Source of the DNA: Verrucomicrobiota bacterium
GTDB lineage: Bacteria; Verrucomicrobiota; Verrucomicrobiia; Verrucomicrobiales; Akkermansiaceae
Length of the DNA: 45,050 nt
Direction of reading: 5' to 3'
Assembly: GCA_018969605.1 (NCBI GenBank)
Contig: JAGWXY010000012.1
Span: 1 to 45,050 of the forward strand
Made by a program: the position numbers and the translations under genes. Positions within the stretch are counted from its first letter, which is position 1. Every line of letters begins with the position of its first letter. A model generated the notes under the pieces. The model made no database searches, was not told the DNA's origin, and saw nothing but the letters and a program-made list of their open reading frames with translations. Positions 497 to 4,361 of the stretch are shown piece after piece.

Positions 497-534
497 AAGC
501 ACTAAATCTTAAGCACGAAATTCGAAACGAAGAG
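497..534. repeat. Inverted repeat arm 1 (38 bp) of S23 element 1
   Basis: These 38 bases are the exact reverse complement of 1083-1120 (38/38). The core contains CTAAATCTTAAGCACGAAAT. The hexamer AAGCAC recurs at 483, 497 and 511, every 14 nt, so the outer flank also has repeat-like character. The arm lies 19 nt upstream of the batA start codon. Confidence 0.95.
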
Positions 535-549
535 GAAGAGGTTGAAGGG

Positions 550-575
550 CTAAATCTTTAATGTGAAATTCGAAA
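550..575. repeat. Degenerate partial copy of the 38-bp repeat (same orientation as arm 1)
   Basis: These 26 bases match the inner part of arm 1 (from CTAAATCTT to GAAATTCGAAA) at 21 of 26 positions; the differences cluster in the middle. It lies just inside arm 1 and forms an inverted pair with the copy at 681-711. Confidence 0.75.
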
Positions 576-680
576 GGAGATAAGGAAGCGGCGATTGAGA
601 TGTTTTGTTATGAATGGCGCGGGTGCCGGAATGAGATGGATTTGAAATTCGTTATCAGGTCGCATTCTCAAGTCTCTTTG

Positions 681-711
681 TTTCTAATTTCGTGCTTAAG
701 ATTTAGTGCTT
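681..711. repeat. Inner copy of the 38-bp repeat (same orientation as arm 2)
   Basis: These 31 bases match the corresponding part of the right arm (1090-1120) with a single difference, near the left end. The copy ends 9 bases before the stop codon of the broken S23 gene, so the gene is bounded by direct copies (681-711 and 1083-1120), while arm 1 is inverted relative to both. Confidence 0.9.
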
Positions 712-719
712 CAAATCCC

Positions 720-1082
720 CTATTTCGAATTGCGCAGGATGGTGGCGAGGATACGGGTAAGTTCGTCGGATTCTTTGAAAAGGGTTCTCAGGGTGGATTT
801 GGTGGATTTGTTTTCGGATGTTTCGCCCAGCAGGCGCTGTCAGAGTTTGGATTCGCTGGCTTCTTTTTTTGCGATGCGGATGCGAAAAAGAAAGTCCGGT
901 TTCGAAACCGCGTTGTTGGCCTCGATGTAGTTAGCGGCGACTGATCCGGACGAGCGCAAAAGTTGATCGCAATCCGACCATTGAGTCCTCGTCCATTGGG
1001 ACGCGGAGATGCACGATCTCACCTCGAGCGCGAATTGAAACGTGCGTTCTTCCAAATCGTATGCAGGTTCCCGCTCCTCCAT
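720..1082 (-). pseudogene. Four-helix-bundle (S23/IVS-type) protein, broken by an in-frame TGA
   Basis: From ATG at 1080-1082 the frame encodes 80 residues with hallmarks of the 23S-rRNA-IVS/four-helix-bundle family: DLEERTFQFA near the start, QLLRSSGSVAANYIEANNAV in the middle, then FRIRIAKKEASESKL. It then meets TGA (840-842) where relatives have a Trp codon (usually ...YWLRLL). The same frame continues QRLL... for 39 more codons to TAG at 720-722, with family-like content. A TGG-to-TGA change would explain this, so I call it a pseudogene; the truncated product lacks the last helix. The 38-bp repeat arm ends directly at its start codon. A sequencing error or recoding of TGA is less likely. 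Confidence 0.8.
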
Positions 1083-1120
1083 CTCTTCGTTTCGAATTTC
1101 GTGCTTAAGATTTAGTGCTT
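1083..1120. repeat. Inverted repeat arm 2 (38 bp) of S23 element 1
   Basis: Exact reverse complement of 497-534. It abuts the start codon of the S23 pseudogene (1080-1082) on one side and contains the stop codon of the DUF58 gene (1112-1114) on the other, so the last residues of that protein (Lys-His) are read from repeat sequence. Confidence 0.95.
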
Positions 1121-2002
1121 CGATTTAATGAATCTCGCTGTGAGGAAATCGCGCAGGAGTGGCTCGAGCGGCGAGTCGGTGGTGATGAAGCGGTAGTCGC
1201 AGTGCGACTCGGCGCATTCGCGGCGGACGGATGTGAGAAATGAATTGAGACTGCGTTGGTACTCTTCGGCGATGAGTTCCGGTTCGGCGACGATGGTGGT
1301 TTTGGTTTCCATATCGACGAAGCGGTGGGGGCGTTCGAAATCGAAATCAATTTCCGCGCGGTCCATCACATGGAAGACCGAGACATCGTGCTTTTGTTGC
1401 TGGAGGTGGCGAAGGGCGTTGCCGAGTGGTGCGGTGTCGGCTAGGAGGTCGGAAAGGATCACGACGAAGGAGCGACGCGGGGCTTTCGATGCGATTGCGT
1501 GAAGGGCGCTGGCGAGGCCTGTTTCGCCGGCGGGTGCGATCGAATCGAGCGCGGAAAAAATCCGTTCGAGGTGGGCGGCGCGGCGGCTGGGCGGGATCTC
1601 GAGTTGAAGTTTTTCGGCGCAGACGGAGAGGCCCGCGGCGTCGCCTTGGTTGACGAGCAAATAGGCGAGCGATGCGGCGATGCGGCGGGCGAATTCGAAT
1701 TTTGATTCGCCGTCGCTTTGGAAGTCCATCGAGCCGGACGCATCGACCACAAAGATCGCGCGCATGTTGGTGTCGGCTTCGTATTCCTTGATGTAAAATC
1801 GATCCGAGCGCGCGAAGGCTTTCCAGTCGAGCCGGCGGGTATCATCGCCGGGGACATACTTGCGGTACTCGGCGAATTCGACCGATGAGCCGCGGTGTGG
1901 CGAGCGGTGGCGGCCGGCCATGTTGCCGGTCATTGCGATGCGTGCCTCGACAGGAAGCGAGGAGAGGCGTGAGAGAAGAGCGTTATCGATGAAATCGTAC
2001 AC
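1112..2002 (-). CDS. DUF58 protein of a MoxR/VWA operon
   Basis: A 296-residue protein starting with GTG (2000-2002). Near the N-terminus are the motifs AGRHRSPHRGSSVEFAEYR and GDDTRRLDWKAFARSDRFY, diagnostic of DUF58. The VWA-like part follows with FVVDASGSMDF (MIDAS-like DxSxS). DUF58 proteins are encoded with MoxR AAA+ ATPases and membrane VWA proteins, exactly as here (moxR upstream, batA downstream), and the set is proposed to act as a chaperone-like system on periplasmic or membrane targets. The C-terminus (KSKH) runs into the 38-bp repeat, so the natural end may have been altered by insertion of the element. No clear Shine-Dalgarno precedes the GTG. Confidence 0.88.
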   Translation of the reverse strand: MYDFIDNALLSRLSSLPVEARIAMTGNMAGRHRSPHRGSSVEFAEYRKYVPGDDTRRLDWKAFARSDRFYIKEYEADTNMRAIFVVDASGSMDFQSDGESKFEFARRIAASLAYLLVNQGDAAGLSVCAEKLQLEIPPSRRAAHLERIFSALDSIAPAGETGLASALHAIASKAPRRSFVVILSDLLADTAPLGNALRHLQQQKHDVSVFHVMDRAEIDFDFERPHRFVDMETKTTIVAEPELIAEEYQRSLNSFLTSVRRECAESHCDYRFITTDSPLEPLLRDFLTARFIKSKH

Positions 2003-2019
2003 TTGGGAGAGTCAAGAGG

Positions 2020-2039
2020 CCAGAGGCAAGAATCCAGAA
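2020..2039. repeat. Inverted repeat arm (20 bp), S23 element 2, left
   Basis: CCAGAGGCAAGAATCCAGAA on the plus strand pairs with 2465-2484 at 19 of 20 positions. It lies 17 nt upstream of the DUF58 GTG start in transcript direction. A related half-copy (ATCAAGATTCCAGA, 2063-2076) covers the 3' end of the S23 gene. Confidence 0.9.
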
Positions 2040-2063: not shown

Positions 2064-2447
2064 TCAAGATTCCAGATGAAGAGGAGGTGAGGGCTTTAGG
2101 TGTCCGATGAAACCGCTCAACATTCGTGAGATTTCCCGCGTTTCTTCAATCATGGCATCCGTATTGGCAAATGGTTTGGTCTTCAATTCTCGGCAGACTT
2201 CGCGATGAATCATCAATTGCGTGCTAAGTTCACCACACGAGCCTTTGCTGTAGCTCAGGAACCTCACGAAATCCGCATCGGAAGCCCTCTCCGCTCCTTC
2301 TGCGATGTTTGAGGGAATTGAAATCGCAGAGCGTTGAATTTGATCCTTGAGCGCGAATTCTTGCGACTTGTGCGATGCGACGCAGACATTTACCGCCAAT
2401 CGGCATCCACGCTTCCAGACATCAAGATTTTCAAAGTTATGGTCCAT
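2064..2447 (-). CDS. Four-helix-bundle protein (S23/23S-rRNA-IVS family)
   Basis: An intact 127-residue protein. NLDVWKRGCRLAVNVCVASH, FALKDQIQRSAISIPSNIAEG and DFVRFLSYSKGSCGELSTQL are hallmark segments of this family (helix 1; the conserved Q-x-x-R-S-x-x-S-I-x-x-N-I-x-E-G signature; helix 3 with Gly-Ser-x-x-E). Usual length is 115-130 residues, so it is complete. Family members occur as ORFs in 23S rRNA intervening sequences and are structurally related to the Avd accessory protein of diversity-generating retroelements; function is unknown, though nucleic-acid binding is suspected. It is co-directional with moxR and DUF58. Start ATG at 2445-2447. Confidence 0.9.
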   Translation of the reverse strand: MDHNFENLDVWKRGCRLAVNVCVASHKSQEFALKDQIQRSAISIPSNIAEGAERASDADFVRFLSYSKGSCGELSTQLMIHREVCRELKTKPFANTDAMIEETREISRMLSGFIGHLKPSPPLHLES

Positions 2448-2464: not shown

Positions 2465-2484
2465 TTCTGGATTCTTGTCTCTGG
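2465..2484. repeat. Inverted repeat arm (20 bp), S23 element 2, right
   Basis: Pairs with 2020-2039 at 19 of 20 positions. In the operon mRNA the two arms would form a stem with the whole S23 gene in the loop. It lies 12 nt after the moxR stop codon. Confidence 0.9.
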
Positions 2485-2496
2485 TTTCTTTTTTTC

Positions 2497-3519
2497 TCAC
2501 TCCTCGCGTGATTCGCGGATCAGGCGTTCAACGATTTTTTTGGAATTCATGCCTTGAGATTCCGCGTTGAAGTTGGTGATGACCCGGTGGTTGAGAACGG
2601 CGGGGGCGATGGCTTCGAGGTCTTCGAGCGAGGCCATGTAGGATCCGCGGAGGGCGGCGCGGGATTTTGCGCCGAGGACTAGGTACTGGACAGCGCGGGG
2701 TCCGGCACCCCAGGCGACCGAGTCGTTGATCCATGCGGGGGTGTCCGTTTGGCCCGGGCGAGTTTTGCGTACGAGGCGAACGGCGGCCTGATACACATGC
2801 TCCGGGACGGGAAGTCGTCGCACGAGTTGTTGGCAGGCGAGGATTTTTGGTCCGTCGATCAGTTTCTCGAGTGGTGTGGCGTGGCCGCCGGTGGTTTCAC
2901 GGGCGATGCGGGTTTCCTCTTCGAGCGAGGGGTAGCCGACTTCGATGAGGAACATGAAGCGGTCGAGTTGCGCTTCGGGCAGCGGGTAAGTGCCTTCCTG
3001 TTCAATCGGATTTTGAGTTGCGAGGACGAAAAATGGCGAGGGCAGCGGGTAGGTTTTGCCGAGGACGGTGACCTTGTTTTCCTGCATCGCCTCTAGCATG
3101 GCTGATTGTGTTTTGGCGGGCGCGCGGTTGATTTCATCGGCGAGTACCATGTGGGAAAAGACCGGGCCTTTGATGAACTCGAATTCCCTGCGGCCGCCAG
3201 CGCCGGATTCCTGGATGATGTCGGTGCCGGTGATGTCGGCGGGCATCAGGTCGGGGGTGAACTGGATGCGGTTGAAGGTGAGGTCGAAGGTTTGGGCGAC
3301 CGAGGAAACGAGCAAGGTTTTGGCAAGGCCGGGGACGCCCATGAGCAGCGCGTGCCCTTTGGCGAAGAGGCAGATCGCAAGCTGCTCGATCACCTGTTCC
3401 TGGCCGATGATCACCTTGCCGATTTCTTGGCGAAGGACTTGATGGATTTTTCCAAGTTCGTCGATGGCGGCGACATCGTCTTCGGGAAGTTGCGGGGGGG
3501 AGTCGGTGTGGGATTCCAT
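2497..3519 (-). CDS. moxR: MoxR-family AAA+ ATPase
   Basis: 340 residues from ATG at 3517-3519. The frame is open further upstream, but only from this Met does it match the family (DELGKIHQVLRQEIGKVIIG). Motifs in order: IGQEQVIEQL, Walker A GVPGLAKT, QFTPDLMPADITGTD, Walker B region VLADEINRAPAKTQSAMLEAM, sensor ATQNPIEQEGTYPLPEAQLDRF. MoxR ATPases remodel substrate proteins together with VWA-domain partners; here the DUF58 and BatA proteins downstream are the likely partners, and the Asp/Ser-rich MIDAS sites of those partners fit. It is the first gene of the operon, so the promoter should lie in 3520-3660, near that of the divergent toxin-antitoxin pair. Confidence 0.93.
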   Translation of the reverse strand: MESHTDSPPQLPEDDVAAIDELGKIHQVLRQEIGKVIIGQEQVIEQLAICLFAKGHALLMGVPGLAKTLLVSSVAQTFDLTFNRIQFTPDLMPADITGTDIIQESGAGGRREFEFIKGPVFSHMVLADEINRAPAKTQSAMLEAMQENKVTVLGKTYPLPSPFFVLATQNPIEQEGTYPLPEAQLDRFMFLIEVGYPSLEEETRIARETTGGHATPLEKLIDGPKILACQQLVRRLPVPEHVYQAAVRLVRKTRPGQTDTPAWINDSVAWGAGPRAVQYLVLGAKSRAALRGSYMASLEDLEAIAPAVLNHRVITNFNAESQGMNSKKIVERLIRESREE

Positions 3520-3626
3520 GTCTGGGGTAGGATGCCAAGCTAGGTTCGCACGGGTTTTTGTCCAGAAGTGATCTTGGTACAGGGGTGGGGGCAGGGATTT
3601 ACAACTTGTCGGTTCCAATCGCCGGA

Positions 3627-3659
3627 TTGACAATTCAGCTAGGAAATGCCATTTATATT
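3627..3659 (+). promoter_or_regulatory. Possible promoter of the AbrB/PIN pair
   Basis: TTGACA at 3627-3632 is a perfect -35 hexamer. An AT-rich stretch ATTTATATT at 3651-3659 could give a -10, but spacing is 18-21 nt depending on the hexamer chosen. The start codon follows at 3663, so the transcript would be nearly leaderless. Weak call because of the spacing. Confidence 0.35.
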
Positions 3660-3662
3660 ACC

Positions 3663-3926
3663 ATGCAAATCACGCTTGATCGCATGAGTCGGATTGTGGT
3701 GCCCAAGGCCATCCGGGATCGTTTTGCGCTGAAGCCTGGCGACGATATGGAAATCACCGTTGAGCCGGATGGGATTCGGCTACGCCCGGCGTCCCCGGCA
3801 TCGTCGCTTGCTGAGGAAAGCGGAATTCTTGTTTGCTCCAGTGAAGTTCCGCCATCGGCGTGGGACATCGGGGCATTTTTGGAAGAGCAGAGAAAAAATC
3901 GCAGCACTGAGATTGGTGGGCTTTGA
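3663..3926 (+). CDS. AbrB/MazE-like antitoxin (SpoVT-AbrB fold)
   Basis: 87 residues from ATG at 3663. MQITLDRMSRIVVPKAIRDR followed by FALKPGDDMEI is the typical swapped-hairpin AbrB DNA-binding domain (about residues 1-45). The rest, rich in Pro/Ser/Glu, would wrap the toxin and block its active site. It is followed after 3 nt by a PIN-domain gene, the classical antitoxin-toxin order. Such antitoxins bind their own promoter as dimers, more strongly in complex with the toxin. An upstream in-frame extension to 3558 exists but does not resemble the family. Confidence 0.88.
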   Translation: MQITLDRMSRIVVPKAIRDRFALKPGDDMEITVEPDGIRLRPASPASSLAEESGILVCSSEVPPSAWDIGAFLEEQRKNRSTEIGGL

Positions 3927-3929
3927 TTC

Positions 3930-4361
3930 ATGAAAGTCTGTTTTGACACCTCCACTCTCGTTGCTGCTCTGCTTCAGCAACACCCCCATCACGCCATTGC
4001 GTTTCCACGGCTCAAAGCGGTGAAAGATGGCTTGCTGCACGGGTATTTGACGACCCATTGCCTGGCCGAACTTTTCGCCACGCTCACTGCATTACCGCTC
4101 AAGCCCCGTCTGCTTCCAGCCGAGGCCCAGCGCATCATGGGTCAAAGCATCCTTGGGCATTTTGTCCTCATTCCATTGAGCGCCGACCACTACCATGAGG
4201 CCATGAAAATGACGGTCACTGAAAACCTGTCCAGCGGGGCCATCTACGACGCCCTCCATCTCGTCGGTGCTCTCAGTGTCGGTTGCAGCACCCTATACAC
4301 GCTAAATTTGCGCCATTTTCGCTCGCTGGCGCCGGGTGACTCCATCATTGCCTCGCCTTGA
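3930..4361 (+). CDS. PIN-domain ribonuclease toxin (VapC-like)
   Basis: 143 residues. CFDTSTLVAALL (Asp6), LAELFATL (Glu47) and GAIYDALHLVGAL (Asp107) give three of the acidic residues that coordinate Mg2+ in PIN nucleases. The fourth position reads LYTLNLRHF, with Asn126, a known variant in this subfamily. PIN toxins cleave RNA, often tRNA or rRNA. The gene starts 3 nt after its AbrB-type antitoxin, so the two are translationally coupled. The pair sits between the moxR operon and the ribosomal genes, typical of an acquired stabilisation module. Activity is inferred from motifs. Confidence 0.87.
   Translation: MKVCFDTSTLVAALLQQHPHHAIAFPRLKAVKDGLLHGYLTTHCLAELFATLTALPLKPRLLPAEAQRIMGQSILGHFVLIPLSADHYHEAMKMTVTENLSSGAIYDALHLVGALSVGCSTLYTLNLRHFRSLAPGDSIIASP

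Follow-up and report, generated by a model that had tools for sequence, protein, structure and literature searches.

Does an intervening sequence of the kind found in 23S rRNA genes also reside in a protein-coding operon? The question is raised by the moxR operon of a Verrucomicrobiota bacterium (Akkermansiaceae), where a long perfect inverted repeat encloses a gene of the S23 family. Bacterial genomes commonly encode S23 proteins, for which, to our knowledge, no role is known. Among the open-access papers found, those that describe an element around S23 do so only for 23S rRNA. The best comparison is the intervening sequence (IVS) of Coxiella burnetii, which carries an S23 open reading frame, has a 28-bp stem cleaved by RNase III and, immediately upstream of the S23 start, bears AGAAGA and tandem GACAGAT heptamers (PMC4990558). 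The window analyzed here is the whole 45,050-nucleotide stretch at positions 1 to 45,050 of contig JAGWXY010000012.1 (assembly GCA_018969605.1).

Analyses of the DUF58-batA junction indicated that the repeat is real: its two arms are exact reverse complements over 38 bp, as the original prediction had stated, and extended pairing covers 45 bp at 93% (Table 1). No other inverted repeat of at least 22 bp with more than 82% complementarity occurred in the remaining 42 kb of the window, so that the likelihood of a 38-bp repeat arising by chance is negligible. As the same plan was also present in independent assemblies, including the single-contig genomes G004 and G041, both chance and an assembly artefact were rejected. 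The enclosed frame (720-1082) does belong to the S23 family, with a match to PF05635 at E=2.9e-8 (34.3 bits against a cut-off of 33.8) and to TIGR02436, "four helix bundle protein" (47 bits against a cut-off of 24). Its ATG (1082) follows directly after the 5' arm. An in-frame TGA replaces a tryptophan that is kept in an alignment of five intact orthologues; the frame is otherwise full length, aligns at 72% to the intact copy in genome G009 (L026), and is still accompanied by perfect arms. The stretch 497-1120 had been predicted to be a single unit with an S23 gene. An S23 frame is indeed enclosed, but the presence of a third arm, a 95% direct copy of 1083-1120, indicated that the unit is compound, with an S23 part between two direct arm copies (674-711 and 1083-1120) and a 215-bp gene-less hairpin (497-711) formed by the arms 497-534 and 674-711. 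The DUF58-batA copy is a member that was recently damaged by one nonsense codon and is fused to a derivative hairpin that lacks a gene.

Table 1. Features of the moxR operon and its two S23 elements, in operon order; arms are named 5' or 3' in the sense of the operon.
Feature	Position	Strand	Remarks
moxR (AAA ATPase)	2497..3633	-	PF07726; annotated start uncertain
5' arm, moxR-DUF58 element	2465..2490	-	AGAATCC-type words
Intact S23 gene (127 aa), moxR-DUF58 element	2064..2447	-	PF05635 3.6e-28
3' arm, moxR-DUF58 element	2014..2039	-	pairs with 2465-2490 (88%)
DUF58 protein gene	1112..2002	-	PF01882; last codons AAG CAC TAA enter the outer end of the arm
5' arm, DUF58-batA element	1083..1120	-	AAGCACT AAATCTT AAGCACG AAATTCG AAACGAA GAG
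S23-family frame, DUF58-batA element	720..1082	-	PF05635; in-frame TGA 840-842; open part 840-1082 (80 aa)
Extra arm	674..711	-	95% identical to 1083-1120, same orientation
Degenerate arm copy (76%)	545..578	-	oriented like 497-534
3' arm, DUF58-batA element	497..534	-	exact reverse complement of 1083-1120
batA-like gene, truncated by contig end	1..477	-	PF07584

The operon contains a second S23 element. The order of genes on the minus strand is moxR, S23, DUF58, S23 (with the nonsense codon), gene-less hairpin and batA. The original prediction was correct in placing S23 inside a protein-coding MoxR operon but did not mention the intact gene between moxR and DUF58, whose product scored 98.3 bits against PF05635 (cut-off 33.8) and 98 against TIGR02436 (cut-off 24). 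Both elements lie between protein genes and not in 23S rRNA. Their predicted RNA folds differed in strength, with a z score of -6.35 for the DUF58-batA element and of -2.2, modestly better than shuffles, for the moxR-DUF58 element. Just outside the operon, on the plus strand at 3558-4361, the translations read as AbrB-like in one frame and PIN-domain-like in the next, and from these readings the two probably form a toxin-antitoxin pair.

A profile search of the genome (G000) with PF05635 identified five S23 loci above or near the cut-off, each of them between inverted-repeat arms. Another hit (L013, C143:30091) was left aside, being below the Pfam cut-off and having no long enclosing arms. The words that make up the arms differ by junction: AAGCACT AAATCTT..., AGTTTCA AGTGTTT..., GTTAGAA GTTATCA..., AACATCG AACATCG... 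and AGAATCC AGAGACA.... Words of the AAGCACT AAATCTT type were also found in at least two gene-less hairpins (C18:31447-31535 and C108:6566) and in a single arm (C143:24735).

The arrangement recurs widely in related bacteria. PF05635 matches were present in 55 of 59 genomes from the genus and the order, and the complementarity of 5' and 3' flanks was scored for 123 S23 genes from this genome and its relatives, using as controls flanks paired between different S23 genes. The median score was 20, compared with 8.5 in the controls; 87% of the genes exceeded the 95th percentile of the controls and 52% the 99th. The arms are degenerate tandem heptamers, with an identity of 0.57 at lag 7 and 0.54 at lag 14 against 0.31 in shuffled sequence, and lag 7 was the best lag in 76 of 95 arms. 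By a separate array score, heptamer arrays occurred in 60% of 5' flanks, as opposed to 2% of shuffles, usually with 3-5 units (mode 4 or 5). In addition, GAAGA was found upstream of S23 in 39% of cases and at 5% of control starts.

The plan extends beyond the order. In a phylum-wide sample of 29 S23 loci, 79% were above control. A single-protein scan of a wider collection yielded 29 S23 loci labelled as other phyla (Planctomycetota, Desulfobacterota, Gammaproteobacteria, Omnitrophota, Balneolota, Lentisphaerota and others; the labels are those of the records, many of which are metagenome-assembled genomes). Flank complementarity in this set had a median of 19 against 9, with heptamers such as AGTTTTA, and 45% of the loci exceeded the control 95th percentile, which is high here because unrelated elements share the same words. 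Based on these data the feature is not unique, as further S23 loci occur in this genome and in its relatives.

S23 genes mostly lie in the direction of their hosts. For 116 S23 genes both neighbors were called with a codon-usage gene caller, and 110 of these S23 genes lie in the sense of both neighbors; when 54 junctions were grouped by neighbor homology, a grouping that splits a few true junctions, 42 of the 47 that could be scored were co-directional with S23. As a small control, both neighbors were co-directional for 13 of 35 genes of the window. All S23 elements with called neighbors were between protein genes, and the host junctions, as read from the neighboring proteins, include metK-ahcY, nuoI-nuoJ, nuoG-nuoH, moxR-DUF58, DUF58-batA, livG-livF, nrdB-nrdA, cysD-cysN, gyrase/topoisomerase IV subunits, argD-argF and pheS-pheT. 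The sense orientation could reflect a need for read-through transcription alone. The position between co-transcribed genes, together with the S23-less hairpins at such junctions, would suit a simple terminator, attenuator or mRNA-stability hairpin unrelated to S23. We regard this as very improbable, since the arms flank an open reading frame at a distance of about 400 nt or more from each other, are not GC-rich with a T run, and bracket S23 in 87% of cases when judged against the mismatched-flank controls, while orthologous operons without arms have 2-21 nt between the same genes.

We give about an even chance to the reading that the window holds two members of a widespread, mRNA-resident family of IVS-like cassettes that undergo RNase III-type excision and whose arms are recognized by S23. 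Each is an S23 gene between two complementary arms, of about 4-5 degenerate heptamers apiece, and lies in sense after the stop codon of one operon gene and before the start codon of the next. In the operon transcript the arms would pair to form a long stem whose loop contains the S23 message, and a double-strand-specific nuclease (RNase III, as for the 23S rRNA IVS) could cut the stem, which would free a short S23 mRNA and separate the flanking cistrons. The protein itself, which forms a pentamer in a relative of solved structure, probably recognizes the heptamer arms of its own element and probably helps to maintain or move that element.

Comparison of orthologous operons revealed that both elements of the window are variably present. 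At the moxR-DUF58 junction, S23 was found in 9 of 28 genomes (in one as a remnant), 14 genomes had a short or empty junction (2-69 nt) and five had other inserts. At the DUF58-batA junction, S23 was found in 6 of 26 genomes, the junction was short (2-35 nt) in 13, and five had other inserts; a 206-nt insert in two of the 26 was a clear gene-less hairpin in G018 and a degenerate one in G006. The closest relative, G031 (88% nucleotide identity in DUF58), lacks both elements, and G007 lacks the one between moxR and DUF58. Next to batA, G031 retains GAAGCACTAAAC, which may be either a scar or the pre-insertion sequence. The search for empty sites suggested with the original prediction was therefore successful at both junctions, and the possibility it had allowed, of a unique repeat conserved in position in every relative and without empty sites, does not describe what was found: the repeat recurs, and empty sites exist.

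In one case, an exchange of cassettes was observed. Genomes G001 and G013 have flanks that are 90% and 92% identical around wholly different S23 genes and wholly different arms, and the exchanged stretch is bounded by stop and start codons. This cassette replacement could represent movement or a homologous replacement of the junction. At the DUF58-batA junction of G009 (L026), the arms extend from the stop codon of DUF58 up to the start of batA, and pairing continues beyond both. A perfect palindrome there runs through the DUF58 stop (AAG CAC TAG) into the batA start (GTG CTT), as though the arms had taken in host sequence.

Other small inserts were seen at DUF58-batA in L024, L032, L033 and L034 (about 700 bp) and at moxR-DUF58 in L029 and L048. 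The first residues of some of these six resemble the beginnings of Phd/YefM or AbrB antitoxins. From these inserts, both junctions appear to be hot spots of small modules.

Presence and absence, gene-less derivatives and the cassette replacement, as well as the Y1-transposase genes in the genome, are features that would be expected of a transposon-like element or MITE that a transposase, for example of the RAYT/Y1 type, moves in trans at the DNA level. We consider such an element improbable, as the arms share no common end sequence even within one genome, antisense insertions are almost absent, and no clean target duplication was detected at the window junctions compared (G000 against G031 only). 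None of eight inspected Y1-transposase loci had heptamer arms, and movement driven by RAYT was rejected on this basis. No mobility enzyme was identified for the S23 elements. The S23 elements resemble REP/REPIN sequences and MITEs in being short, dispersed and palindromic, with some gene-less copies, but differ in having no shared end sequence and in that most copies carry their own S23 gene.

The two arms of an element were found to co-evolve. At the same junction in different species, an S23 gene's own arm pair scored 20.1 against 12.7 for cross-species arms, the own pair being better in 77 of 89 comparisons. The DUF58-batA element of G002, for instance, has an S23 that is 64-70% identical to the others, yet its 33-bp perfect stem is built of different words. 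Across junctions, arm similarity followed S23 identity, rising from 0.17-0.18 below 40% identity to 0.33 above 60% (Mantel r 0.22, 0 of 500). Joint transfer of gene and arms would be expected to give such co-variation, as would recognition of the arms by the protein.

The moxR-DUF58 S23 proteins share 70-84% amino-acid identity, whereas in the codons of conserved residues only 38-50% of third positions are identical, which is less than in the neighboring genes in nearly all cases, and synonymous sites are largely saturated. Conserved amino acids with diverged third positions indicated purifying selection on an old copy, and a recent horizontal arrival of this S23 was unsupported, as the neighboring genes generally have the higher third-position identity. 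We interpret the empty junction in the G031/G007 lineage as probably due to loss.

The pattern of mismatches in the arms did not indicate selection on pairing of the sense RNA. The result was the opposite, as mismatches of the G-U type were fewer in the sense (106) than in the antisense (176), which argues against such selection. Mutation bias may confound this wobble test; the weakness of the RNA model is real nonetheless. Because of this result we retain, as an unlikely but serious alternative, an explanation at the DNA level, in which heptamer slippage and template switching at palindromes keep the arms complementary, S23 is an ordinary useful operon gene, read-through alone accounts for its sense orientation, and there is no RNA excision. 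The rapid change in the number and words of arm heptamers beside an S23 under purifying selection is consistent with this explanation, as are the missing sense-RNA wobble pattern, the perfect arms next to a nonsense-carrying S23 and the existence of gene-less hairpins. It leaves unexplained the regular bracketing of S23 by arms, the tracking of S23 type by arm type, the difference in period between S23 (7) and a second gene family, GxxExxY (8-9), described below, and the plan common to the 23S rRNA elements (PMC4990558).

This last likeness is considerable. As had been predicted, the elements have the plan of an intervening sequence that codes for S23. Operon and 23S rRNA elements both have an S23 open reading frame in the loop of a long terminal stem and a total length of about 0.4-0.5 kb, with an AG-rich GAAGA or AGAAGA motif and tandem heptamers by the S23 start; both sometimes have a damaged S23 frame and are patchily present. 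The elements at metK-ahcY use AGACAGA-type words, and their similarity to the GACAGAT heptamers of Coxiella is the strongest link to the rRNA elements. Solved structures of S23 relatives include 2gsc and 2rld, and the Xanthomonas S23p is described as a homopentameric toroid (PMC4990558). The operon elements differ from the 23S rRNA IVS in that they lie between protein genes, their arms are heptamer arrays throughout and vary by junction, and their S23 is under purifying selection. We did not class them as 23S rRNA IVS because of their location outside 23S rRNA and because their cutting by RNase III is something we infer. There is a fair chance that they are a new class rather than a variant of the IVS. 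Searches of an open-access library, which covers only a minority of subscription papers, revealed no account of S23 cassettes in protein operons, in agreement with the original prediction, and none in which heptamer arms are a general property of S23 genes.

Almost all S23 genes sampled from the order, and many from outside it, have heptamer arms and lie in sense in housekeeping operons (nuo, nrd, metK-ahcY, pheS-T, cysD-N, gyr/par). S23 thereby gains an element, a predicted binding target in its own arms, and hosts in which it can be tested. If RNase III does cut these stems, many polycistronic mRNAs would carry natural cut-out segments like those of ribosomal RNA, and the reading of transcript processing and gene dosage in the host operons would change.

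Two other known systems have partial similarities. Avd, the accessory protein of diversity-generating retroelements, has a four-helix-bundle fold, in common with S23, and binds reverse transcriptase. A search with PF00078 produced 0 matches in this 98.7% complete assembly, unlike in diversity-generating retroelements with Avd, and retro-mobility by a resident reverse transcriptase was rejected on this basis. Cyanobacterial STRR heptamers are another bacterial heptamer repeat set. TAACTGA heptamer repeats occur in Beggiatoaceae, cyanobacteria and Bacteroidetes (PMC4679880). Both sets resemble the arms in having 7-nt units that are intergenic and often near start codons, but each repeats a single fixed heptamer in direct orientation and is not described as forming arms that pair around a gene, whereas the S23 arms are degenerate, complementary and bracket S23.

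Genes of the GxxExxY/PDDEXK_3 family (PF13366) were likewise found to be bracketed by inverted repeats on an S23-like plan with other words. The 32 loci comprise three in this genome (L164, L165 and L166, on C58, C18 and C20) and L311-L339, and in 81% of them flank complementarity exceeded the control 95th percentile. The best lag was 9 (15 loci) or 8 (6 loci) and never 7, with arm words of 8-9 nt such as CGCCAAGAC, CGCAGAGGA, ACAGGATTT and CACGAA.... In G031 the C18 gene is absent and a remnant of another, heptamer, arm, GATGTTCAATGTTGGGTGTTCAATGTTCGATG, is present (L187, G031:C372, compared with L160:5291-5797); by this comparison, the junction appears to have been occupied successively by different cassettes. 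The GACCACTGATTTCACTGATT words of the C18 element also occur in dispersed hairpins of about 100-140 nt, with no gene in them, in G031 and G007 (L188-L193), although the element is absent as a gene from both.

Based on the difference in repeat period between the two families, we tentatively propose, at rather less than an even chance, a class of boxed-gene cassettes. In this class a small gene would be bracketed by complementary degenerate arrays, the protein that it encodes would determine their period (7 with S23 in several phyla, 8-9 with the GxxExxY nuclease family) and read its own arms, and cassettes would occupy, leave and replace each other at the stop-to-start joints of housekeeping operons as cut-out segments of the mRNA.

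Two further repeats were noted in the genome of the window. On C143 (L018, about 1170-1280), a long run of CTTCCT hexamers abuts a single arm-like array (TTTCGTTTCGAATTTCGAATTTCGAATTTAAAATTTC). Near a Y1-transposase match on C58 (L303) there is a near-perfect GC-rich inverted repeat, GGGAGCGCGGGCGTCCCGCCCGC, unlike the heptamer arms, and a word similar to it is also present in L018.
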